From positions 1 through 20,823 of the IMG/VR virus record IMGVR_UViG_3300030012_004782: DNA of 20,823 nucleotides; one strand, 5' to 3'. The stretch is from a virus. Made by a program: the position numbers and the translations under genes. The notes under the pieces were generated by a model. It was not told where the DNA came from. It ran no database searches and was given only the letters and a program-made list of their open reading frames with translations. Position 1 is the stretch's first letter, and the number at the start of each line of letters is the position of its first letter. Positions 3,049 through 20,760 of the stretch are shown in pieces.

Positions 3049-3639
3049 ATGTCATCATTTTGGAGCACAAGTGCCGCAGCAGCGACTAAAGACCCTAAAA
3101 GAAATTTTAGATTTAAAGTAACCTTTACAGGTCTTTCAACAGAATCCGTATGGTTTGCAAAAAAAGTTGGTAAACCAAATTTTACTATTACAGAGTCTAC
3201 ACACGAATTCTTTAATCACAAGTTTTATTATCCTGGTAGAGTTGAGTGGCAGCCTGTCACTTTGACTCTTGTTGATCCAGTTGATGAGACTGTAAATACA
3301 GCTGCTCAAATGGCGGCATTGGCTGAAGCTGCCGGCTATGTTATTCCGAAAGGACCAGGCGAAAATTTAGTATCAATGACGAAGGGTAAGGCTGTTTCTT
3401 CTATTGGTACAGTAGAAATTGTTCAACTAGATGGCGATGGAAAGGCTTTAGAAACTTGGAAACTTCACAATCCATTTATTAAGTCATTTAAGTGGGGAGA
3501 TTTGGATTATACCAGCGACGACATTACAGAAATGGAACTTGAACTCAGATATGACTGGGCCGAGTTGGAAACAAAAGCACAAAGTGCTAATCTTAATGAC
3601 ATGGGTCAAAAGAAAGAATTCTTCAAAACTACCGAATAG
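3049..3639 (+). CDS. Tail tube protein, gp19-like (copy 1)
   Basis: Tail tube subunit that forms the inner channel beneath the sheath. The 196-residue product shows the gp19-type pattern: RNFRFKVTFTGL near the N-terminus, VGKPNFTI, the NHKFYYPGRVEWQPVTLTLVD segment, SSIGTVEIVQLDGDGKALE and the closing WKLHNPFIKSFKWGDLDY-type strand. Length is close to T4 gp19 (163 residues). Its start has an AGGAG Shine-Dalgarno site about ten bases upstream. It sits directly after the sheath gene and before a second, clearly related tube gene; it may be the major tube protein because it is closest to the sheath and has the more regular sequence (inference). Function is assigned from family resemblance and position. 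Confidence 0.9.
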   Translation: MSSFWSTSAAAATKDPKRNFRFKVTFTGLSTESVWFAKKVGKPNFTITESTHEFFNHKFYYPGRVEWQPVTLTLVDPVDETVNTAAQMAALAEAAGYVIPKGPGENLVSMTKGKAVSSIGTVEIVQLDGDGKALETWKLHNPFIKSFKWGDLDYTSDDITEMELELRYDWAELETKAQSANLNDMGQKKEFFKTTE

Positions 3640-3657
3640 TCAATAATAGGATATTAA

Positions 3658-4203
3658 ATGTGGTGGAATTTAAAAGAAACAGAACCAAAAAGAAAGTATA
3701 GATTTGTTGTTGCAATAAACAACACAGGCTATTACACCGTAAAATCTGTTTCAAAGCCAAAGCTCACATTTGACAATAAAGAATACAAAATGATCAACCA
3801 CTTTTACAAGTATCCTGGGCTTGGGAAGTGGGAAGACATTGATATCACTTTTGTCGACAATATTAAAAGTGAAACTTCCGGTTTGTTTACAAAGCTTGTA
3901 AATGCATCGGGTTTCGCGAATCCTAACGGAAAGCAAATAAGTGGCAGTGCAGGAGGAAGCACAGCTTCTAAAACAGCTTCAAACACTTCTATAGGTGAAA
4001 TCAAAATAACTCAAGTAAATGGTGCCGGCAAAGAAATTGAAGTATGGACTTTACACGATGCAATTTTGAAAGATGTGTCTTGGGGTGATACCTTAGCATA
4101 TAGTGACGACGAATTAGTAGAATACAAACTAACTATACAATATGACTACGCAACTATTGGGGAAAACGGAATTACTTCAATGGCCCCCCCGAGTAGTAAA
4201 TAA
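3658..4203 (+). CDS. Tail tube protein paralogue, gp19-like (copy 2)
   Basis: The 181-residue product is a diverged tandem copy of the preceding tube protein. Matching blocks appear in the same order: KYRFVVAINNTG, VSKPKLTFDNKEYKMINHFY, YPGLGKWEDIDITFVD, TSIGEIKITQVNGAGKEIE and WTLHDAILKDVSWGD, with a shared Tyr-Ser-Asp-Asp turn near the end. A short Ser/Ala/Gly-rich insert lies around residues 98-112. In T4, gp54 is a tube-fold protein that starts tube growth on the baseplate, and some myoviruses carry two tube proteins. This copy could therefore be a minor tube protein, a tube initiator or a terminator; the sequence does not decide. An 18-base gap with an AGGA-type ribosome site separates it from copy 1. 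Confidence 0.85.
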   Translation: MWWNLKETEPKRKYRFVVAINNTGYYTVKSVSKPKLTFDNKEYKMINHFYKYPGLGKWEDIDITFVDNIKSETSGLFTKLVNASGFANPNGKQISGSAGGSTASKTASNTSIGEIKITQVNGAGKEIEVWTLHDAILKDVSWGDTLAYSDDELVEYKLTIQYDYATIGENGITSMAPPSSK

Positions 4204-5285: not shown

Positions 5286-7940
5286 ACAGAAGATGAAAAG
5301 AAAAAAGCTGAGGCCGCGTCCAGACTAGAAGAGAGGCAGAGCATCAATGATGCGATAAGAGAAGGCAAAGAATTACAAGAAAGTATAAATAATTCTATGG
5401 CCGAAAGAAATGCCTTGATGGGCGAGTATGCCAAAAATGTAGCCGCTGCTTTAAAGCAAGAAATTGCTGAACAAGAAAGGTTGTTGCAAATAGCTCAGCA
5501 GACTAACAAATCTAGCGAAGAAAGAAGAAAAGATATGCTAGAGGCTCTGGGGTTGCAAGCCGAATTCAATCAAGCTCTTAATGATGCATTAGCGGCACAG
5601 AGAGAAGGAAACGAACTACAAGATGATCAGAAAAAACAAATTGAAGCTTTTCATGAAAAGTTGAAACAAACAACCGGAATACTTTCAACAAAATACACCG
5701 CCGCAATCGCCGCAGCAGCAATGAATTTTGACGGATCTGCAGAGGGAGCAAGAGACTTAGCCGAAGCAGTAGAGGCAGCCAGTCAAGCAGGAAATAATCT
5801 TCAAGAAGCTCAAAATGAAGTGTCCAAAGTTGCAGGTCAGGTGGCAGGTAAATTTGGTCTTGTTTCAGACGTCAGTGGCACACTGGTTGGGCAAGTATCT
5901 TCAGTAGCTTTTTCTTTAACAAAAGCGTACGATGCAGCAGGTGGCAAAGGTTTAGCTGGTGCAATGGGGTCTTTTTTACTAGAGTCTTTCTCTGCTGAAA
6001 AAATATTGGCCTCAATGGTTCAAGAAGCGATGAAGCTTGCCGTCGAACTCGATAAAGCTGGTAAAGCTTTCGGAGCGGCTACCGGGTTTGCATTTGGTGG
6101 TGCTCAAGCACGAATACAAGGCATATCAAAAGACTTAGTTAGATCCGGTGTTACAATGGAAAACGTTGGGACATCTATAAAAAGCCTCGCAGACAACTTT
6201 GCTGGTTTTGACCCTGGAAACATCAACAAGGATATGGTAACAACTTCAGCTTTGTTGGCAAAAATTGGTGTCGGAGCAGAGCTATCTGCTAAATCTATGG
6301 ACTTCATGGTTACCGTAATGGGAAAAACTGAAGAGCAATCCGCCGCTTTAACAAAACAGCTGGCTCTAACCGGTAGACAAATTGGAGTAGCTGCTACAGC
6401 AATGATATCAAATTTTAACAATGCGGCAAAAAAACTTGTCGAATTTGGTCCTCAAATGGTTTCTGTTTTCAAAGAACTTTCAGTTCAATCAAAGATAACC
6501 GGATTATCCATGGATAATCTCATAGGTATTGCTGAGAAATTTGACACATTTCAAGGAGCATCGGACCAGGTTTCTCAATTGAATGCAGTTCTTGGTACTC
6601 AAATGTCAGCCATGGACATGCTCAACATGTCGCACGACCAAAGAATACAAACTATAAGAAATGAGGTTAAAGCTTCTGTTGGAAACTTTGATTCTTTGGA
6701 TAGGTATACGAAAAAATATATAATGCAAGCAATGGGCGTAAAAGATGTCGAAGAAGCACAAAGAATGCTTAATATGACAAGCGATAAAACCAGTGCAAAA
6801 CAACAAGAGATGATGCAAAATCAAGAAGATTTGAAGGCAATCACAGAAGAACTAGTTCCAATGTATGACAAGCTTAAACTAGCATTCGCTGAACTTGTTA
6901 GAGAGATGGACCCTCTTATACAATTCTTTATTGAATTTATTGATACTATGGCAAAACTTGCACAAGACGGCTGGCTGAAATGGATAGCTGGTACTATTGG
7001 GGCGATTACCCTCGGACTTGTCCTATTTGGAGCCGCGATGGGATTTGCAGGGGCTCAAACAAAACTTTTGCAAATTGGCTTGATTCTTATTATAGGAGCA
7101 CTAAAGTACCTAGCAGAAGGTAAACTTGGGACGTTTGCTATAATATCTTTAGGAGTTGTTCTTCTCGGACTTGCCTTTCATTACCTAGGGAAAAGACTAG
7201 ATAAAGTTACTGAAAAGTTTGATTTCTTAAAACTATTATTTGGATCTAAAATCAATCCACTCTTTATTCAGTCCTTTGCCTTTATGTCTATCGGTGTTTT
7301 AGCACTTGCCTTGGCATTTAAGATTATGGGAATTCAAGGGACAACAGCGGCATATGCATTGGGTGCTGTATTCGCTGGTATGGGACTTGTAATATTTGCT
7401 CTCTCGTTTCTTGTTGACTCCATAACAAACCTCTTAAGTTCATTGACCGAAAGTGTCGATGTTTTACCTTTGGTGGCCATGGGTATTCTTGGTATTGCTT
7501 ACTCTGTTGGTGCTCTAGGAATGGCTGTTCTTTTGTCGACATCTGCTATAATATTTTTAATGGCATCAATGACAACTCTCGGAGGTGTGTTTGCGGGAAT
7601 AGGCATGTTTATGGGGATTAGTGCCCTTGAAGGAGTCGGATCAAGCATGGACAGAATTGGCAGCGGAATGGACAAGTTTGCCAACGGTCTTTCAAAAGTA
7701 AAAGAAGCAGCCATTGGAATGAAAGGGATAACCGATAAAGCATTTATGGCTTTTACAACAGATGGATCAAAAACTAGTGCAATAATCTCATCAACAGATA
7801 TTGTCAAGAATATGGTTTTAGGAAAAATGACAGTTGATGTTAAGATTCCGGAGATTGAAATACCTCAGGTCACCGTTAACATATATATGGACGGATCGCT
7901 GATCAGTAATTCACTTTACGAAACAATATTAGAAAACTAG
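5283..7940 (+). CDS. Tail tape measure protein
   Basis: The 885-residue product sets tail length and sits inside the tube. The first 130 or so residues are charged, Gln/Glu/Lys-rich and predicted coiled coil. The middle is Ala/Gly/Met-rich helix. A hydrophobic region from about residue 565 to 780 holds several membrane-type segments (for example IAGTIGAITLGLVLFGAAMG and IISLGVVLLGLAFHYLG), as in many tape measure proteins that help DNA cross the inner membrane. The C-terminus is a short beta-type piece with alternating Ile/Val (IPEIEIPQVTVNIYMDGS). At the usual 0.15 nm per residue this would give a tail of very roughly 130 nm (rule of thumb). The start is TTG at 5283, chosen from the well-placed GGAGG ribosome site. 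It follows the gp26-like assembly genes, the standard position. Confidence 0.88.
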   Translation: MTEDEKKKAEAASRLEERQSINDAIREGKELQESINNSMAERNALMGEYAKNVAAALKQEIAEQERLLQIAQQTNKSSEERRKDMLEALGLQAEFNQALNDALAAQREGNELQDDQKKQIEAFHEKLKQTTGILSTKYTAAIAAAAMNFDGSAEGARDLAEAVEAASQAGNNLQEAQNEVSKVAGQVAGKFGLVSDVSGTLVGQVSSVAFSLTKAYDAAGGKGLAGAMGSFLLESFSAEKILASMVQEAMKLAVELDKAGKAFGAATGFAFGGAQARIQGISKDLVRSGVTMENVGTSIKSLADNFAGFDPGNINKDMVTTSALLAKIGVGAELSAKSMDFMVTVMGKTEEQSAALTKQLALTGRQIGVAATAMISNFNNAAKKLVEFGPQMVSVFKELSVQSKITGLSMDNLIGIAEKFDTFQGASDQVSQLNAVLGTQMSAMDMLNMSHDQRIQTIRNEVKASVGNFDSLDRYTKKYIMQAMGVKDVEEAQRMLNMTSDKTSAKQQEMMQNQEDLKAITEELVPMYDKLKLAFAELVREMDPLIQFFIEFIDTMAKLAQDGWLKWIAGTIGAITLGLVLFGAAMGFAGAQTKLLQIGLILIIGALKYLAEGKLGTFAIISLGVVLLGLAFHYLGKRLDKVTEKFDFLKLLFGSKINPLFIQSFAFMSIGVLALALAFKIMGIQGTTAAYALGAVFAGMGLVIFALSFLVDSITNLLSSLTESVDVLPLVAMGILGIAYSVGALGMAVLLSTSAIIFLMASMTTLGGVFAGIGMFMGISALEGVGSSMDRIGSGMDKFANGLSKVKEAAIGMKGITDKAFMAFTTDGSKTSAIISSTDIVKNMVLGKMTVDVKIPEIEIPQVTVNIYMDGSLISNSLYETILEN

Positions 7941-7950
7941 GAGAAAAAAC

Positions 7951-10044
7951 ATGTCAGGATTTCCTCCTTTTACCATTGATACAAACAAGATTAAGCAATT
8001 AAATACCAAAACAAAACATCCAATAACTATTGCATCGCTCACAAGTCATAGAGTTCTCAGATTGGACCCTTTTATTGAAAGCTTTAACTTCAAGGTTTCA
8101 AAAAAAACTGAATTTGAAAAATTTGATGCTGTTAATTCAGAAGGTGGTGTCATTGAGGGCCCATCTGAACTGAGCATATCTATTACCATGAATATACCTG
8201 CTCAATATTCATCGCAAGCCAAAAATAATGTGATGAAAATTGCTGAACTTCAAACCATGATTCATCCGGATATAGGTGAAAAGAATAACACTGCGGTTAT
8301 GTTGGTTCATATGAAAAATTTAATTGCTAGGGCACCTTCAAATATTTCAAGTATTACTTTTGCTAATTGTTATAAATATGGACTTCCGTGTATAATATCG
8401 TCAATTGAATACACACCTGAATTTGACGCTGGATTTTTTGAGGAAAAATATCCAAAAAATATAAAACTATCACTTCAACTAAAAATTATAAATCAAAAAC
8501 TTAGCTTGACTCAAGATGGCATCAAAGATGAGCACGATTTTAGATTTGCACAATCTTTTTTGGTCAACGGAATGTACCAAGAACTAGACAATAAAGGATT
8601 TCCTTTTGGATATTTTCAATTTAACGATGATGAAGTATATGCAGGTGCCGGCAATGACCTAAGTCAGATGGGTTTTTATTCCGGAAAAGATATGTCTACG
8701 TTGGACCATTCATCCAAAACATATATAATGTTCTCTAACGATATTGTCGATCAAGAACTTCCGGAAGATTATGTGGATGTGAATAAAGATGTTTTAGAAC
8801 AGTTAAAACTAATTGAAGAAGGGTTACCAGACCCAAAGCCACAAGGCTTTGTTGGCCATAAAAGGTTCGCTAGAAGACAAGCAGCCAGTGAGAATACAAA
8901 GATTGCTAGATGGGTCGCTTTTGAACCTTTTATAAAAGACTTAAACAGATCGGTTGAAGTTGAGCACAAAGAAAAAGTAATTGGCGATGGAGCTTTTAGT
9001 TCAGGCTACGAAAGCACGGTTCCAAAATATATCAAATACTCTTTAGATTTCGATGTGATAGCAAAAGATATTAAATCTGCAAAGATTAATCTAGCCAAAC
9101 TTAACACCTTGTTAAGACTAGCCAATGCACCTACTAAAGAAAAATTTACACCAGATGCTTTGGTAGTAGAGCCTCAAAGAAAAAGTGGTTACTCAAAACC
9201 AATGAAGGTTTTAATTCCGGGATTTTTACAAGTTGGAGACCCCGGGGTTAAACCGGCTAGTATAAGCCTAAAAAAAAGAAAACAGCTTTTGCCTTATTGT
9301 GTTGATTTACACGTTTACTCTATTGATTTTGATATTGATGATGATATTGGTTTTTTTGAAACTGATGATGTTTTACTTCCAAAAGCATATAATGTGAAAA
9401 TTGAATTGTACTCAGCGAATACAGGAATTTCAAATGTTGCTTATAAAGACCCTTCAGCACAAAACGTCGTTAACTCAGCAGGACCTGAGCCAGCCAGCGT
9501 TCCGCCCGCTGAAGATGATGCCGAGGGCAGCAGTTCCACACCCTTGCCCGATGGAAAAACAATCCCTAATGCACCGACAGTTCAACTTCATAGATTAGCA
9601 GATCCCCCAGGGACAACAGCAGTTCACATATACTCTACCAGCGAAAATGGACCCGGAATTATTCAAGCTGTTGTTGACCCAGCAACGGGTAGGTATGTTT
9701 ATGCTCAGAATCTAGGTCCAGATAATCCAATAAACATAGCTATTATAGAAGCCATAAATTATACACCATCAGATTTTGTTGGCCCTTCTCCACCTTCACC
9801 GACTACACTAACTCCTAACGAACAAACACAAACGATTGTGTTAGAAAGTCTAGGTCCAAAACCACCGAAACTCAAAGATGGTGATGAACCAGCCCCGACA
9901 AATGTAGTTAATAATAGTGGCGATGAAGCTCCACCTGGGCCTGTTAAAGATGCAAACACCGGTGGTACTGAAGCACACGATCCACAATACGTTCAAGAAG
10001 GTAAATCACTGTATGATAACTTCGATGATGAATTTTTAAGATAG
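7951..10044 (+). CDS. Baseplate structural protein with internal domain duplication
   Basis: The 697-residue product is not matched to a named family but its place between the tape measure and gp53-like genes points to the baseplate or tube-baseplate junction. It seems to hold two related domains: residues about 37-181 and 324-489. Both open with PFI, continue with a beta-rich section ending in a Lys/Ala/Leu helix (NNVMKIAELQTMIHP against KINLAKLNTLLRLANAP), and end with a paired block, LPCIISSIEYTPEFDAGFFE against LPYCVDLHVYSIDFDIDDDI followed by GFFE. The last 200 residues are Pro/Asp/Glu/Ser-rich and probably largely disordered. A GGAG ribosome site lies six bases before the ATG. A gp48/gp54-type tube-junction role is possible but unproven. 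Confidence 0.6.
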   Translation: MSGFPPFTIDTNKIKQLNTKTKHPITIASLTSHRVLRLDPFIESFNFKVSKKTEFEKFDAVNSEGGVIEGPSELSISITMNIPAQYSSQAKNNVMKIAELQTMIHPDIGEKNNTAVMLVHMKNLIARAPSNISSITFANCYKYGLPCIISSIEYTPEFDAGFFEEKYPKNIKLSLQLKIINQKLSLTQDGIKDEHDFRFAQSFLVNGMYQELDNKGFPFGYFQFNDDEVYAGAGNDLSQMGFYSGKDMSTLDHSSKTYIMFSNDIVDQELPEDYVDVNKDVLEQLKLIEEGLPDPKPQGFVGHKRFARRQAASENTKIARWVAFEPFIKDLNRSVEVEHKEKVIGDGAFSSGYESTVPKYIKYSLDFDVIAKDIKSAKINLAKLNTLLRLANAPTKEKFTPDALVVEPQRKSGYSKPMKVLIPGFLQVGDPGVKPASISLKKRKQLLPYCVDLHVYSIDFDIDDDIGFFETDDVLLPKAYNVKIELYSANTGISNVAYKDPSAQNVVNSAGPEPASVPPAEDDAEGSSSTPLPDGKTIPNAPTVQLHRLADPPGTTAVHIYSTSENGPGIIQAVVDPATGRYVYAQNLGPDNPINIAIIEAINYTPSDFVGPSPPSPTTLTPNEQTQTIVLESLGPKPPKLKDGDEPAPTNVVNNSGDEAPPGPVKDANTGGTEAHDPQYVQEGKSLYDNFDDEFLR

Positions 10045-13770: not shown

Positions 13771-15000
13771 ATGGGAGGTAGATTTTTAAATAGAAGAACA
13801 AATCAAGCCAACAAAGCATGGGTCTTTAAAAAAGAATGGAAAGCCCTTGCCTATGATGGCATTGAAAACCCAGCTGCAAAGACGGTTGTCGATTTTGAGT
13901 TCATCGAAAGAAGACACTATGGAAAGATTGATCACAACAACAACTCTGTTATTCCTAATGAGAATTTTATCGTTCCATATAGAGATGGCTTCATGTTCGA
14001 CTTTGTAGCAGATTCTTTGTCAGCTATGCAGTTGAATATTGCTGCAGCAATTCAAAAAAATCTGTTGCCGAATGATAATGTGTTTGGTAAAATGCAAATT
14101 CTTGATTCATATAAAAGTCCTAAGTTAAGATATGGAGAGTATCTTGCGAATACTCTCCAATTTTACAACAAAACATACATTCCAAACAACGTTGGTATAA
14201 CCAGTATAGCATCATACAAAGACTATGTCAAGCATTTTTTAAACTTTTTTTATAAAAAACCTATTAGAGAGCCATTGACGTTATCAAAATTTTTAACTAG
14301 TAACAAAGCAAGTCCGTTGGACACGGGACTATGTTTTAAATATTATGACATTGAAATTCATGAAGATAGAAGAAAGTATGATGAATTAATTTCTCATCCT
14401 TGCTTTGATCATTTCCAAAACATTTGTCTCAACACTGGTTTTAGTATTGTTCACAATGCTCCAAATATGTTAATGTACAACATTAGTTCTCCTGCTAATA
14501 GAAACATTAAAAATTCTTATGGTTTATATAATTTAGACTTTATATTTAATAATAGATTTACAAATACATTTAATATAGATATTTCTTTATTGTTTAATAA
14601 TATTAATATATATTATAATAAATATGCCGCAGAAAACTCACTTTCGAAATCTGTAGAAGTGAAATGTGGCAAAATCGTAAATAGTTTTCAGACGCGTGAA
14701 ACAGTACCAAACAACTTCAACCCCTATAGTGATCAAGAATTGATTTCAATGTATGTCGACATCAGAAACTATGAAGAAGAGGCGAGTTTTTCGAAAAACA
14801 AGTTACGCAACATAAAAAGAAAAGCAAATTATTTTCTTAAATCAGTTGACAAACCTAAAGCAATGAGTTATATTAATAATATATTCCGTGATCAAGTTTG
14901 GAATAGATCAAATGGCTTTCATGACAAGAAAAAAGCCTTTTTAAATAAGCCCACCAACAATGGGCTTCACGATGGACACGATCACGATCATGGTTACTAG
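13771..15000 (+). CDS. Uncharacterised structural-module protein with His-rich tail
   Basis: The 409-residue product is not recognised. It is the last gene of the structural run, nine bases after the hub candidate and with a GGAG ribosome site at 13762-13765, so a virion or tail assembly role is likely from context only. The sequence is rich in Asn, Tyr, Phe and Lys, with a basic, helical stretch near residues 340-365. The end is striking: His at positions 400, 403, 405 and 407 alternate with Asp and Gly (HDGHDHDHGY), a pattern able to bind divalent metal. No membrane segment or catalytic motif is visible. A strong promoter for the next module lies inside its 3' part. Confidence 0.6.
   Translation: MGGRFLNRRTNQANKAWVFKKEWKALAYDGIENPAAKTVVDFEFIERRHYGKIDHNNNSVIPNENFIVPYRDGFMFDFVADSLSAMQLNIAAAIQKNLLPNDNVFGKMQILDSYKSPKLRYGEYLANTLQFYNKTYIPNNVGITSIASYKDYVKHFLNFFYKKPIREPLTLSKFLTSNKASPLDTGLCFKYYDIEIHEDRRKYDELISHPCFDHFQNICLNTGFSIVHNAPNMLMYNISSPANRNIKNSYGLYNLDFIFNNRFTNTFNIDISLLFNNINIYYNKYAAENSLSKSVEVKCGKIVNSFQTRETVPNNFNPYSDQELISMYVDIRNYEEEASFSKNKLRNIKRKANYFLKSVDKPKAMSYINNIFRDQVWNRSNGFHDKKKAFLNKPTNNGLHDGHDHDHGY
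14846..14874 (+). promoter_or_regulatory. Sigma70-type promoter inside 3' end of structural gene
   Basis: TTGACA at 14846-14851, a 17-base spacer and TATATT at 14869-14874 match the other promoters of this window in both boxes and spacing. It lies 135 bases before the polymerase start and well inside the coding region of the 409-residue protein. It would start the replication module without read-through from the tail genes. Unlike the other copies, it lacks the TG just before the -10 box. Confidence 0.65.
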
Positions 15001-15008
15001 GAGGACAA

Positions 15009-16196
15009 ATGCTATTTCAATTAATGGACAACAAAACCGACTGTGCTGGGACTTATCTCAGCGGTCAATTCGTTTGGGACAAAATACCAGACGGAATATC
15101 AAAAACGTGGTCATACTCTGATCACTTGTATGGCAGAGACATCGAATATGCTAATTTACTGGTGGCTGGTAAGTCGATAGACGCCGTTTGCCCTGAGCAC
15201 CTAAGGGAGCGATGGGATTTCGTTAAAAACCTCATGAGAGCCCATTTCAAAGCTTTCTCGGCATCGAAAATTAACCTTGACGACGTTTGTTTCTACGACG
15301 TTGTGCCGAGAAAACAACTTCAACATTATTTTGAAGCACGCAATGACATCACACAGTGGGTATTTGATTCCATAGAGCGGCCTGATAACTATAATTTTTT
15401 AAAACGGATACAGGCAGCCACACGAGAACTCAAACAATATCCCGTTAATTTGAATTCTTTTGCAATTTATTGCTGTGCAGCAGATGATTTGAAAGCCAAA
15501 CAACTTTATGATCAATTTGGAGAGAGCACACCTTATGTTGACTATGATATCTTCGGAACGGTTACAGGGCGAATGACAACAAAGAAAAACTCATTCCCAA
15601 TCTTGAACCTCAAGACGGAACTCAAGAAACACGTAAGACCAAACAATGATGTGTTTCTAGAACTTGACTTCAATGCTGCTGAAGTCCGAACAATGCTTGC
15701 ACTGCAAGGCCACAAACAACCTGAGGAGGATATACATGAGTGGAATATCAAAAACGTTTTTAAAAAAGAACTTAGCCGAGACAAAGCTAAAACAAAATTA
15801 TTTGCTTGGCTCTATAACCCCGACTCCCAAACAATACAATCAGATTTCTACGATCGGGACAACCTTAGAGAAAAATATTATGATGGAGAAAAGGTTCAAA
15901 CCCCTTTCGGTAGATCGATCCCTGCTCCCTTTCGCAAGGCACTCAACTACCTACTGCAATCAAGCTCCTCGGACAACACCATGGACAGGTTTTGCGAAAT
16001 TTCTAATTTTCTTAGGGCAACAAGATCCCATGTTGCTTTCGTTGTTCATGATAGCGTTGTCATCGACTTACACAAAGATGATCGAAGACTGATTCCTGAG
16101 TTGGTTAATATGTTTGGTGATACTAGGCTTGGAAAGTTTAAAGTAAACTGTTCTCTTGGAAAAAACTTGGGATCAATGAAAGAGTTTAGGTGGTGA
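15009..16196 (+). CDS. Compact family A DNA polymerase (polymerase domain only)
   Basis: The 395-residue product is a DNA-dependent DNA polymerase of the Pol I family. Motif A reads LELDFNAAEVR, with catalytic Asp220 and Glu225 in the place of E. coli Asp705 and Glu710. The O-helix (motif B) has Arg257, Lys261, Phe265 and Tyr269, with the exact +4/+8/+12 spacing of E. coli Arg754, Lys758, Phe762 and Tyr766. Motif C is VHDS with Asp348; the Glu usual after it is Ser349. The TGR motif (T186-R188) and a TPFGRSIP/RKALNYLLQ section are also present. The N-terminal 150 residues show no 3'-5' exonuclease motifs, and the A-B and B-C distances are shorter than in E. coli (37 against 49, 91 against 128). 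A GGAGG site precedes the ATG by a few bases. The exonuclease may be encoded elsewhere. Confidence 0.9.
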   Translation: MLFQLMDNKTDCAGTYLSGQFVWDKIPDGISKTWSYSDHLYGRDIEYANLLVAGKSIDAVCPEHLRERWDFVKNLMRAHFKAFSASKINLDDVCFYDVVPRKQLQHYFEARNDITQWVFDSIERPDNYNFLKRIQAATRELKQYPVNLNSFAIYCCAADDLKAKQLYDQFGESTPYVDYDIFGTVTGRMTTKKNSFPILNLKTELKKHVRPNNDVFLELDFNAAEVRTMLALQGHKQPEEDIHEWNIKNVFKKELSRDKAKTKLFAWLYNPDSQTIQSDFYDRDNLREKYYDGEKVQTPFGRSIPAPFRKALNYLLQSSSSDNTMDRFCEISNFLRATRSHVAFVVHDSVVIDLHKDDRRLIPELVNMFGDTRLGKFKVNCSLGKNLGSMKEFRW

Positions 16197-16384
16197 GTAA
16201 ATTTTCGGTAGGCGATCTTGTTCAAGTTGTTGATTCGGCAACTACTGGATTTGTTCACGGAGAAATTGGACTTGTAACAAGCATTGAAAGAATGAGATCA
16301 AGTCATTATATTTATTGGGTTTTATTTGGAAAAGAAAATAAAGATGTCCCAATGTGGGATGTTGAGTTGAAAAAAATATCATGA
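16190..16384 (+). CDS. Small SH3-like protein, tandem paralogue 1
   Basis: The 64-residue product begins FSVGDLVQVVD and continues with a GEIGLVTSIE turn, a YIYWVLFG strand and a VPMWDVEL end, the layout of a small SH3/KOW-like beta barrel (inference from pattern, no family named). The first start is GTG at 16190; the GTG at 16193 would give the classic GTGA overlap with the polymerase stop and is equally likely. The ribosome site is weak (AGAG at 16181-16184), so translation is probably coupled to the polymerase gene. The two genes that follow are related. Function unknown. Confidence 0.7.
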   Translation: MVSKFSVGDLVQVVDSATTGFVHGEIGLVTSIERMRSSHYIYWVLFGKENKDVPMWDVELKKIS

Positions 16385-16611
16385 TTGAAGTTGGAGATCT
16401 CGTCGTTGTAATTTACCCCTACATGGATTGGGATTGGCAGAGATACAAGATAGGCGACATTGGAATCCTTATGGAGATTAGAGACTATTCCAGTTATACT
16501 GTAGCAAAAGTGAGACTATTTAGAACTGACATAATCGAAAGCATACCCTTGGATTATATTGCTTTACTAGGAGATAAAAATGGAAGTGGGGGACCTGGTA
16601 ATATTGATTAG
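16381..16611 (+). CDS. Small SH3-like protein, tandem paralogue 2
   Basis: The 76-residue product shares the pattern of its neighbours: IEVGDLVVVI at the start, IGDIGILMEI in the middle, then VAKVRLF and a final IPLDYIALLG. Its ATG overlaps the stop of paralogue 1 as ATGA, so translation is coupled. The last dozen residues (Gly/Asn/Asp-rich) run beyond the shared domain because the reading frame continues over the start of paralogue 3. Function unknown; the repeated small-barrel design suggests a binding partner or inhibitor rather than an enzyme (inference). Confidence 0.7.
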   Translation: MIEVGDLVVVIYPYMDWDWQRYKIGDIGILMEIRDYSSYTVAKVRLFRTDIIESIPLDYIALLGDKNGSGGPGNID

Positions 16612-16786
16612 ATCACCTTTTCATGAAAAAAATATTTTTGGATATTGCAATGGAGACATGGGTTTAATTAAAGAAGTGATTCAGCACGAAAATGTTTTTG
16701 AGACATGCCTTGTAATATTATTTAAAGATTTTAAAGAGTATCATATCCCAAGTACTTATATGGAAACAATGGAGAAAAAATGTTAA
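16580..16786 (+). CDS. Small SH3-like protein, tandem paralogue 3
   Basis: The 68-residue product begins MEVGDLVILI, has the matching NGDMGLIKEV turn, a CLVILFKDF strand and an IPSTYMETM end, so it is the third member of the set. A GGAGA ribosome site at 16569-16573 lies inside the end of paralogue 2, and the genes overlap by 32 bases. Its stop overlaps the start of the FtsZ-like gene by seven bases. Function unknown. Confidence 0.7.
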   Translation: MEVGDLVILIRSPFHEKNIFGYCNGDMGLIKEVIQHENVFETCLVILFKDFKEYHIPSTYMETMEKKC

Positions 16787-17583
16787 TGGTTGGTCTCGGC
16801 AATGCCGGTAAAAATATTGTAAAATTGTTCAAACCTCACACAAAGAATTATAAAATTATTATCCTTGACGAAGATGATGGTGTACCCAAGCAAGACTCTG
16901 TTGAAAAATATGATGAACACCCAATCAAATTTAAGCAGAAAGGGCTCAAATCTCACTCTGAAGCGATGCTATTTGTTTGTGGTAGTGGTAAGATAGCCGG
17001 TGCGTCTTTACGTGTTCTAGAGGCACTGAGGGAGTACAAAACAACCATTGTATATATCGTGCCTGATCTTGAATTTGCATCTGATCGAGAGCGAAAAAGA
17101 CATCGGGTTCACTTTGGGGTACTACAGGAGTATACCCGCTCAGGTATGATTGACAAGATGGTTATTTTAGACAACAAAACTTTATTTACACATGCTGGTG
17201 CAGGTACCACGTTAAAATATTATGATAAAGTAAATTATTTTATTTATTCTACATTCCAGAATTTGTTATACTGCCAAAATGTTAAGCCTGATTTTGGAAG
17301 ACTGCATCAAAAAAAAGATATCTCTAGAATATCGACAATAGGCATGGGCAAACTAGAGGGAGAAGAAAAATTACTCTTTCCACTTGACAGCATTACCGAA
17401 TCGTGCTATAATATTAATATAGATGAGGAGGATCTTGATAATGATGAAGGCATTATACCAAAATGTCAACAGCTTGTTCGAGACAATAAAGAAAAAAATA
17501 GAGATACTTCGTTTGCGATCTGGAAATCAGATGATGGAAATTATTATTACTCTCTACACTCTACTCATTTTATTCAAGATTAA
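16780..17583 (+). CDS. Divergent FtsZ/tubulin-like protein
   Basis: The 267-residue product matches the order of FtsZ/tubulin landmarks although each is worn. Near the N-terminus GLGNAGKN (residues 5-12) stands for the FtsZ GVGGGGGN loop. FVCGSGKIAGASL (65-77) aligns with the G-box AGMGGGTGTGAA. IVYIVPDLEF and the section to ILDNKTL (about 90-135) follow the FtsZ T5/T6 order. CQNVKPDFGRLH (165-176) then ISTIGMG aligns with the catalytic T7 loop NVDFADVRTV and its following GTG. The G-box has Lys/Ile in place of Gly-Gly, and the second T7 Asp is Arg, so GTP hydrolysis may be lost. At 267 residues it is shorter than bacterial FtsZ and phage PhuZ. Assignment rests on visual alignment. The start is ATG 16780 after GGAGA; MLM could also begin at the second Met. 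Confidence 0.6.
   Translation: MLMVGLGNAGKNIVKLFKPHTKNYKIIILDEDDGVPKQDSVEKYDEHPIKFKQKGLKSHSEAMLFVCGSGKIAGASLRVLEALREYKTTIVYIVPDLEFASDRERKRHRVHFGVLQEYTRSGMIDKMVILDNKTLFTHAGAGTTLKYYDKVNYFIYSTFQNLLYCQNVKPDFGRLHQKKDISRISTIGMGKLEGEEKLLFPLDSITESCYNINIDEEDLDNDEGIIPKCQQLVRDNKEKNRDTSFAIWKSDDGNYYYSLHSTHFIQD
17384..17412 (+). promoter_or_regulatory. Consensus sigma70-type promoter inside the FtsZ-like gene
   Basis: TTGACA (17384-17389), a 17-base spacer and TATAAT (17407-17412) are a perfect match to both consensus boxes, and TG precedes the -10 box by one base (extended -10). It lies inside coding sequence, about 30 bases upstream of a hidden 52-codon ORF and 185 bases upstream of the 72-residue gene. 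Confidence 0.8.
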
Positions 17584-19298: not shown

Positions 19299-19883
19299 AT
19301 GAAAAAAGATAGATATACAGAAGGCAAAGTGACCCTCAGAGAGCATCTAGACACAATTGATCAGAACGGAACCGTTAGCGTTCACGCCAAGAGATCATTG
19401 GTAAGAAGATTAAAACAAAAATTCAAAGATATGGGATACATACGTCTCTCTAAGAACCAGTTTCTTATTGAAGATTATATTGACATGATCTTTGAAACTC
19501 AAGATTATCGTTGCACTCACTGGATTGAAACAAAAGACGGTCAGCTTAACGGCGTCTGGAACAGACCTGGCTCGGGCTACTCTTTGTGGAAAAGAGAGGA
19601 TGTGGTTTATGAATTAGATCATGTCTTCCCAGTGAATGCTGGAGGAAAAGATGGTTTTGAAAACTTTCAGTTTTTGTCTGCTAACGCTAATGCTTTTGTA
19701 AAATGCTCACTAACCTATGATGACCTTCTTAAGAGAGTTGATTTGTCTTTAAAACTAAAGAACAGGATCAAAAGAGTTTTAAGAAGACGAAAGAAACTTT
19801 TCAAATCCGAACGCTGGACCGCTTGGATACAAAAAGTTGAGGCGATGGAAGCCCAAATAAAAAAAATTGAAGAAACTGCTTGA
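19299..19883 (+). CDS. HNH endonuclease
   Basis: The 194-residue product carries an HNH motif: LDHVFPVNAGG at about residues 106-116 (Asp107-His108), Asn122 in FENFQFLSANAN and Asn129/Asn131, with Lys135 after. This metal-dependent nuclease fold makes single- or double-strand breaks; many phages hold free-standing copies that act as homing enzymes or in packaging. The N-terminal 65 residues (basic, helical) may bind DNA, and the C-terminus is a long Lys/Arg-rich helix. No second Cys pair for a structural zinc is visible. GGAGG precedes the ATG. Its stop codon forms part of the TTGACA box of the next promoter. No interrupted gene or intron is visible here. Confidence 0.8.
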   Translation: MKKDRYTEGKVTLREHLDTIDQNGTVSVHAKRSLVRRLKQKFKDMGYIRLSKNQFLIEDYIDMIFETQDYRCTHWIETKDGQLNGVWNRPGSGYSLWKREDVVYELDHVFPVNAGGKDGFENFQFLSANANAFVKCSLTYDDLLKRVDLSLKLKNRIKRVLRRRKKLFKSERWTAWIQKVEAMEAQIKKIEETA

Positions 19884-19986: not shown

Positions 19987-20760
19987 ATGGCTATTAATAT
20001 AGAAGCAATGCGTGCTAAACTTAACGCATCTAAAAACGGTGGAAAACCATCGTCAAGTAAGAGTACCATGTGGAGACCCAAAGCTGGTGATCAACACATT
20101 CGTATTCTTCCAACTGCGGACGGAGACCCGTTCCGTGAATTTCATTTTCACTATAATGTTGGAAAAAACCCTGGAATTTATTGTTCCAAACGTAATGATG
20201 GTGGCGAATGTCCTATCTGCGACTTTGCGTCAAAACTTTGGCGAGATGGAGTCGAGAACGATGATCAAAACCTCAAAAACGAAGCAAAGAAATTGTTCGC
20301 TCGAAAGCGTTACTACTCACCCGTTCTAGTTCGTGGAATGGAAGGTGAGGGTGTAAAAATCTGGGCTTATGGTAAGACTGCTTATGAGACCCTTTTGGGC
20401 TATGTATTGGATCCTGACTATGGAGACATTACTGATGCTCAAACCGGTACTGACATTAAGTTGACTTACACAATCCCAGGCACCCCTGGCTCCTTCCCTA
20501 AAACTGGACTCCAACCTCGCCGTCGTCCGTCTGTCCTCTGTGACGATGCGATCGCTGACTGTCAAGATTTGCTAGATTCGGTACCTGATATTGACAACCT
20601 CTTTGAGGTAAAGTCCGTTGAAGATGTACAGGCTCTGCTGGATGGTTATCTGTCCTCCGACTCTTCGGCAGAGTCCTCTTCAAGAGAGACTCAGAAGTAT
20701 CAAAAGAAAACAGGTGATGATGTAGATAAGGCTTTCGCAGCGTTCATGTCTGAAGAATAG
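19987..20760 (+). CDS. gp32-like single-stranded DNA-binding protein
   Basis: The 257-residue product coats single-stranded DNA in replication and recombination. It aligns with T4 gp32 from IEAMRAKLNASKNGG through HIRILPTADG to the zinc site: His55, Cys66, Cys75 and Cys78 have nearly the spacing of T4 His64, Cys77, Cys87 and Cys90 (10, 8 and 2 bases apart against 12, 9 and 2 residues). The C-terminal tail is acidic and Ser-rich (SSDSSAES, then DDVDKAFAAFMSEE), the part that binds other replication proteins. It is shorter than T4 gp32 (301), and the LAST cooperativity motif (KRKST) is not at the N-terminus. TTAGGAG lies just before the ATG. Most Arg codons are CGN. It has its own consensus promoter. 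Confidence 0.88.
   Translation: MAINIEAMRAKLNASKNGGKPSSSKSTMWRPKAGDQHIRILPTADGDPFREFHFHYNVGKNPGIYCSKRNDGGECPICDFASKLWRDGVENDDQNLKNEAKKLFARKRYYSPVLVRGMEGEGVKIWAYGKTAYETLLGYVLDPDYGDITDAQTGTDIKLTYTIPGTPGSFPKTGLQPRRRPSVLCDDAIADCQDLLDSVPDIDNLFEVKSVEDVQALLDGYLSSDSSAESSSRETQKYQKKTGDDVDKAFAAFMSEE

Follow-up and report, generated by a model that had tools for sequence, protein, structure and literature searches.

A predicted tubulin/FtsZ-fold protein encoded among the replication genes of a family of uncultured phages

Introduction

The virus record IMGVR_UViG_3300030012_004782 comprises 20,823 bases, which were analyzed in full (the window), and one of its genes raises the question of whether a short phage protein that carries only altered versions of the FtsZ motifs belongs to the tubulin superfamily and, if so, what it does for the phage. 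The initial annotation of this gene described a degenerate, shortened tubulin-fold protein, perhaps binding nucleotide but not hydrolyzing it, or else a poison subunit acting on host FtsZ. Profile comparison and structure prediction with a fold search were recommended, and a fold unlike that of tubulin, or a strong match to the profile of some other Rossmann family, was named as the outcome that would speak against a tubulin. Tubulins of large phages are on record: the available text on huge phages mentions PhuZ (PMC7162821), and that of a jumbo-phage survey describes two distinct FtsZ/tubulin representatives (PMC7824862). A search of titles and abstract beginnings, covering few subscription journals, found no paper on a phage family of the kind analyzed here.

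Results

An intact gene that profile searches do not classify

The annotated reading frame of 267 residues, on the plus strand and starting with ATG, was confirmed (Table 1). It is intact and evolves under purifying selection (dN/dS of about 0.06–0.10 for five pairs); the reverse strand of 16780–17583 contains numerous stops in the frame that was read. The gene is located between those for a DNA polymerase and a single-stranded DNA-binding protein. The polymerase scored 33.6 bits against DNA_pol_A, slightly below the cut-off of 34.3. PHROG matches to a tail sheath, two tail tube proteins and a baseplate hub in the left part of the window indicate that it probably comes from a contractile-tailed phage; the two tail tube genes lie side by side at 3049–4203, and both match phrog_4542.

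Table 1 Coordinates of the gene, its elements and the flanking replication genes in the window.
Feature	Position	Strand	Basis
Short family-A DNA polymerase gene, 395 aa	15009..16196	+	phrog_17 E 2.5e-18; DNA_pol_A E 2.8e-8
Predicted tubulin/FtsZ-fold protein gene, 267 aa	16780..17583	+	ATG start; ORF list, predicted fold, relatives
T1-like loop GLGNAGKN, residues 5–12	16792..16815	+	motif position; conserved glycines
Residues 32–60, place of the FtsZ T2-H2-T3-H3 stretch	16873..16959	+	spacing; secondary structure
G-box (T4) equivalent GSGKIAG, residues 68–74	16981..17001	+	motif position; conserved glycines
Asn132, aligned with E. coli FtsZ Asn165	17173..17175	+	hhalign
Asn152 in the H7 helix, aligned with FtsZ Asn186 (adjoins Asp187)	17233..17235	+	hhalign
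T7 loop equivalent, residues 168–182, catalytic acids not conserved	17281..17325	+	manual alignment
C-terminal domain, residues 183–267	17326..17580	+	DSSP; VIA alignments end at 264–267 (rows listed)
Single-stranded DNA-binding protein gene	19987..20760	+	phrog_1192 E 2.2e-28

For the window protein, no match in Pfam, PHROGs or the PDB sequences exceeded the threshold. Among its relatives, matches in Pfam, PHROGs, NCBIfam and the PDB sequences were below threshold and scattered over many families, with the exception of TrkA_N in one member, L297 (for members scanned as a group, E-values were inspected and not every score was compared with its cut-off). PF00091 matched 8 of 45 members at E up to 1 (best E = 0.0058), the scores seen (10.4–16.5 bits) falling short of the 33-bit cut-off, and TIGR00065 (ftsZ) matched 6 of 45 (best E = 0.0018). 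Profile comparison to FtsZ likewise gave no significant match: aligned by hhalign to a set of 35 FtsZ sequences, the family scored 19.0 with 141 members and 19.8 with 45 members, within the range of the controls (mean 14.7, s.d. 2.4 and maximum 21.1 for 60 column shuffles of the 141 members; 21.1 for the reversed family). Alignment of the family to PhuZ of phage 201phi2-1 was not significant either.

All three annotated motifs, GLGNAGKN, CGSGKIAGAS (residues 67–76, nt 16978–17007) and NVKPDFGRLH (residues 167–176, nt 17278–17307), are present. By themselves they do not exceed chance, and sequence alone is no proof of homology to FtsZ; it is the predicted fold that raises the observation above chance.

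Two other families recurred in these scans. TrkA_N was matched at E up to 1 by 30 of 45 members, and at least one of the 45, of which about 18 were viewed individually, passed its Pfam cut-off: L297 reached 25.7 bits against 23.8, in two stretches, the best of them 38 residues long. Of 26 members, 15 had a DEAD-box match (best E = 0.00015); since the predicted fold is not that of a helicase, we ascribe this to local similarity around GSGK and rejected helicase identity.

Predicted structures match the tubulin/FtsZ fold

For the window protein, one of five models was good (pLDDT 82.9, pTM 0.84), the other four lying at 58–65. Because of these four poor models, the relative L325, which shares 29% identity with the window protein, was predicted as well on a wider alignment, with pLDDT 91.6 and pTM 0.90 for the best model and 88.5–91.6 across the five. 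Both models match the two-domain tubulin/FtsZ fold, with its core helix H7, from end to end. The best matches of the window protein were to CetZ 3zid (E = 2.0e-10) and FtsZ 1fsz (E = 3.2e-10) in Foldseek and to CetZ 3zid in VIA (Z 21.2 over 243 residues, rmsd 3.6, 17% identity); L325 matched S. aureus FtsZ in Foldseek (E = 1.1e-12) and again CetZ 3zid in VIA (Z 24.6 over 254 residues, rmsd 2.9, 18% identity). The best 50 rows in each of the four Foldseek and VIA tables were FtsZ, CetZ, TubZ or tubulin entries, some of them complexes. Among predicted viral structures (BFVD), five reached E = 0.001, and four of these are named FtsZ, cell division protein, tubulin or PhuZ, including PhuZ of phage Noxifer (E = 2.9e-4).

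On these predicted models, the protein almost certainly has the tubulin/FtsZ fold. The annotation as a shortened tubulin-fold protein is upheld by full-length fold matches of two models, and the non-tubulin fold that would have spoken against it was not seen. The second adverse outcome, a match to another Rossmann family, was narrowly encountered in the TrkA_N score of L297; none of the best 50 rows of each fold search was a TrkA_N or other dinucleotide-binding Rossmann chain. We did not follow the TrkA_N match, because it spans a generic beta-alpha-beta start, whereas the 50 PDB rows listed for each model are all FtsZ, CetZ, TubZ or tubulin entries whose alignments run from one end to the other.

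The C-terminal end differs from those of well-known relatives. FtsZ carries a C-terminal linker and peptide beyond its second domain, whereas the window protein terminates 5 residues past the last strand (DSSP). PhuZ has a long C-terminal helix and tail; DSSP shows no long C-terminal helix in the models of either the window protein or L325.

A conserved nucleotide pocket with an altered T7 loop

The FtsZ hhalign, used here for residue mapping and not as proof of homology, lays G-box on G-box, Asn132 on Asn165 and Asn152 on Asn186; the region around the two FtsZ asparagines contacts guanine. The element names given to residues 32–60 are those of FtsZ. In E. coli FtsZ, the motifs lie at positions 17 (GVGG), 105 (GGGTGTG), 163 (IPND), 184 (AAND) and 207 (NVDFAD). 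Of the roughly FtsZ-like spacing originally noted, the G-box-to-T7 distance is almost preserved (102 residues in E. coli FtsZ, 99 in the window protein), whereas the T1-to-G-box distance is 25 residues shorter (63 compared to 88).

Residue counts were made over 141 distinct members of 251–298 aa, some of which are without the first residues. The T1-like glycines G5 and G7 are each present in 137 of 141 (the rest being 4 gaps) and G10 in 139 (2 gaps); the G-box glycines G68, G70 and G74 are present in 141, 137 and 140, respectively. Position 132 is N in 139 members and D in 2, and position 152 is N in all 141. For eight pocket residues, picked by us on the basis of the FtsZ motifs, mean column entropy was 0.13, compared to 1.69 across all columns.

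Relative to the GGGTGSG/GGGTGTG signature, GSGKIAG keeps glycines 1, 3 and 7, and the other positions are changed. Position 71 is K in 90 of 141 members and T in 11. The G-box of L325 reads CGAGTISGG, and its GAGTISG is nearer to GGGTGSG than is GSGKIAG.

In the T7 region, the family departs from the NxDxxD/E signature. Under an alignment that was set by our judgement and could shift, position 171, aligned with FtsZ D209, is acidic in 55 of 141 members, and position 174, aligned with D212, is acidic in none (0/141; commonly N, K, S, R, T, A or Q); D209 and D212 are the catalytic acids of FtsZ. The changes noted earlier in the G-box and in the second catalytic Asp thus hold for the window protein and, for the Asp, throughout the alignment. 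A [DE]xx[DE] pattern somewhere within residues 166–182 occurs in 39 of 141 members, so that these may have a displaced acid pair. Conservation of T7 is unremarkable: 73% of 15-column alignment windows show lower entropy in the whole family, 76% in clade A and 49% in clade B (an approximate split, by locus number), compared to 32% in FtsZ. In this alignment, conservation is concentrated on the nucleotide side.

A large family with a constant gene order

Relatives of the window protein were found in IMG/VR at 25 loci (63–88% identity), a profile search extended these to 47 loci, and one relative is 32% identical to the query L072. A wider profile gave 90 confirmed stretches (best 80 listed), and a profile of distant members confirmed at least 552 coding stretches in one IMG/VR scan; the contigs of the 80 matches listed, of these at least 552, are all shorter than 200 kb, as are those listed for the wider profile. 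Eight contigs of 120–194 kb carry one copy of the gene each. Searches elsewhere gave no relatives: tblastn of the window protein against 50,697 phage records had no match, likewise for L074, L325 and L352; 134 stretches in prokaryote genome contigs matched two short peptide patterns, none of which was confirmed; and a family profile (A5), which detected the gene in each of 8 family contigs (8 of 8), had no match in any of five named phage records. PF00091 had no match in 20 distinct family contigs, which may be partial, hence no other tubulin-family gene was seen there.

Thus, the protein belongs to a large, unnamed family in uncultured phages that standard searches miss. The label "degenerate", in the sense of decaying, does not fit a family of at least 552 stretches under purifying selection, and we therefore dropped the decay reading, including that of a decaying PhuZ.

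Gene context was compared at 140 loci with distinct proteins, with neighbors identified by phmmer (E 1e-6; window, L072 and L074 proteins as queries) and counted by midpoint and strand. Every one of the 104 loci whose upstream flank exceeds 2.5 kb has the polymerase gene (polA) upstream of the tubulin-fold gene on the same strand, and every one of the 74 whose downstream flank exceeds 4.5 kb has ssb and recA downstream on that strand; the genes are all in place at 56 of 56 loci where both flanks are long enough. This fixed place among replication genes holds down to approximately 30% identity. In phage immuto, a distant relative, the polA–ssb interval contains two short genes, and in the 484-kb record LR756508 it contains other ORFs, one of them acidic and of 358 aa; profile A5 had no match in either genome. 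By these profile and neighbor matches, the gene is constant in the phages of this family and is not recognizable in immuto or LR756508. For the T4-type clamp (PF02916), nothing scored above the cut-off in 12 records, and no control genome passed either, which leaves this negative result without weight.

Discussion

These observations suggest a small tubulin/FtsZ-fold protein that would bind a nucleotide, most likely GTP, hold it without tubulin-type hydrolysis and act within the phage DNA replication machinery alongside the polymerase and the single-stranded DNA-binding protein. Its role would be static: it could form a stable polymer with GTP bound, or dock on the replication proteins as a monomer or oligomer. 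Nucleotide binding without hydrolysis, as the initial annotation supposed, is probable, given a nearly invariant pocket, an altered G-box and a position 174 that is never acidic: a conserved pocket that lacks the second catalytic acid suggests a protein that holds its nucleotide. A role in replication is fairly likely, although gene neighborhood does not prove function, and the explanation as a whole, a nucleotide-holding, hydrolysis-dead tubulin-fold protein of phage replication, we consider only just likely. That the ligand is GTP, that hydrolysis does not occur and that the role is static, we infer; given the changes in the G-box and the 25 residues fewer between T1 and G-box, the ligand could be a different one, or there could be none. 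A static polymer is plausible because the catalytically inactive PhuZ D190A, according to the available text of its report, needs GTP and forms stable, non-dynamic filaments, with a critical concentration approximately tenfold lower (PMC4244570). The T7 loop of the phage family is not specially conserved, which weakens the case for a classical protofilament and makes a non-polymer role equally worth considering.

The same combination of a nearly invariant pocket with an unremarkable T7 loop, in a gene near polA and ssb, is compatible with a monomer that senses nucleotide, forms no polymer and regulates either the short polymerase (395 aa, with only polymerase matches reported in it) or the nucleotide supply. 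We consider this unlikely, in that the best-known proteins with this fold form polymers.

Still less probable is a poison subunit, an FtsZ mimic that would halt cell division by capping host FtsZ or by assembling together with it. Its fold is FtsZ-like in the Foldseek searches of both models, capping of a protofilament is conceivable for a subunit with a dead T7 loop, and, with no other tubulin-family gene detected by PF00091 in the 20 family contigs (possibly partial), a canonical partner would be the host's. However, the G-box and T7 loop, which meet in FtsZ filaments, have both diverged from FtsZ, and even relatives at about 30% identity have the gene at its fixed place among those for replication. 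This constant place favors a replication function over the poison, which is accordingly the less likely of the two.

A PhuZ- or TubZ-like filament, whose dynamic polymerization moves or centers phage DNA, is improbable: Noxifer PhuZ is among the BFVD matches at E up to 0.001 and TubZ among the best PDB matches of both models, but PhuZ dynamics require hydrolysis, as the available text of that report has it (PMC4244570), position 174 is acidic in 0 of 141 members, and neither model has the long C-terminal helix.

Among known systems, the archaeal tubulin-like CetZ (PDB 3zid, 4b45) is the top structural match of both phage models; its solved chains are listed at 334–360 aa, compared to the 251–298 aa of the phage members, which differ from it in the altered G-box and the T7 acids that are not conserved. 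FtsZ shares the fold over the full length (2r6r: Z 19.1 for the window protein, 22.3 for L325) and the two aligned asparagines, but not significant sequence similarity or the length of the T1-to-G-box stretch. PhuZ is also a phage-encoded tubulin fold, yet hhalign does not connect it to the family, and profile A5 finds nothing in 201phi2-1. The partition tubulin TubZ matches at Z 19.3 for the window protein (2xka, 4ei7) and 22.7 for L325 (4ei7), and again the T7 acids are not conserved in the phage family. FtsZl1 and FtsZl2 are divergent tubulin-superfamily families detected by distant comparison and reported from bacteria and archaea; in the available main text, where the word "phage" is absent, the T6–H7 counterparts of FtsZl1 were not confidently identifiable, and FtsZl1 has a coiled coil and FtsZl2 a C-terminal region of about 300 aa (PMC2875224).

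The family eludes the standard model, PF00091 finding nothing in 20 of its contigs. If the replication explanation is true, a naturally T7-dead tubulin would reveal what the fold is capable of without hydrolysis and would link it to DNA replication. More tentatively, the protein could have become a core, hydrolysis-free replication component in which GTP, once bound, is a sensor or structural cofactor, serving as a permanent organizing polymer or as a non-filament partner of the polymerase and the single-stranded DNA-binding protein. In that case, a large group of phages would employ the tubulin fold for a task beyond the dynamic cytoskeleton.

Other genes at the locus

Searches of the polymerase at 15009–16196 gave polymerase matches only, with no exonuclease domain reported, and a short polA also precedes the tubulin-fold gene in L072 (395 aa) and L330 (405 aa). 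Between polA and the tubulin-fold gene of the window, at 16190–16786, three small overlapping ORFs each have a GDLV stretch near the start and are possibly tandem duplicates; two of them have weak Pfam matches, to NifZ and SH3_13. Directly upstream of ssb, at 19299–19883, there is a weak HNH endonuclease match (phrog_6050, E = 0.00033). In L072, genes for DUF3310, MT-A70 and calcineurin-like phosphoesterase proteins (7548–9802) separate the tubulin-fold gene from ssb, and the replication region of L330 includes a pyrimidine dimer DNA glycosylase at 14101–14571 (Pyr_excise, E = 2.8e-9).
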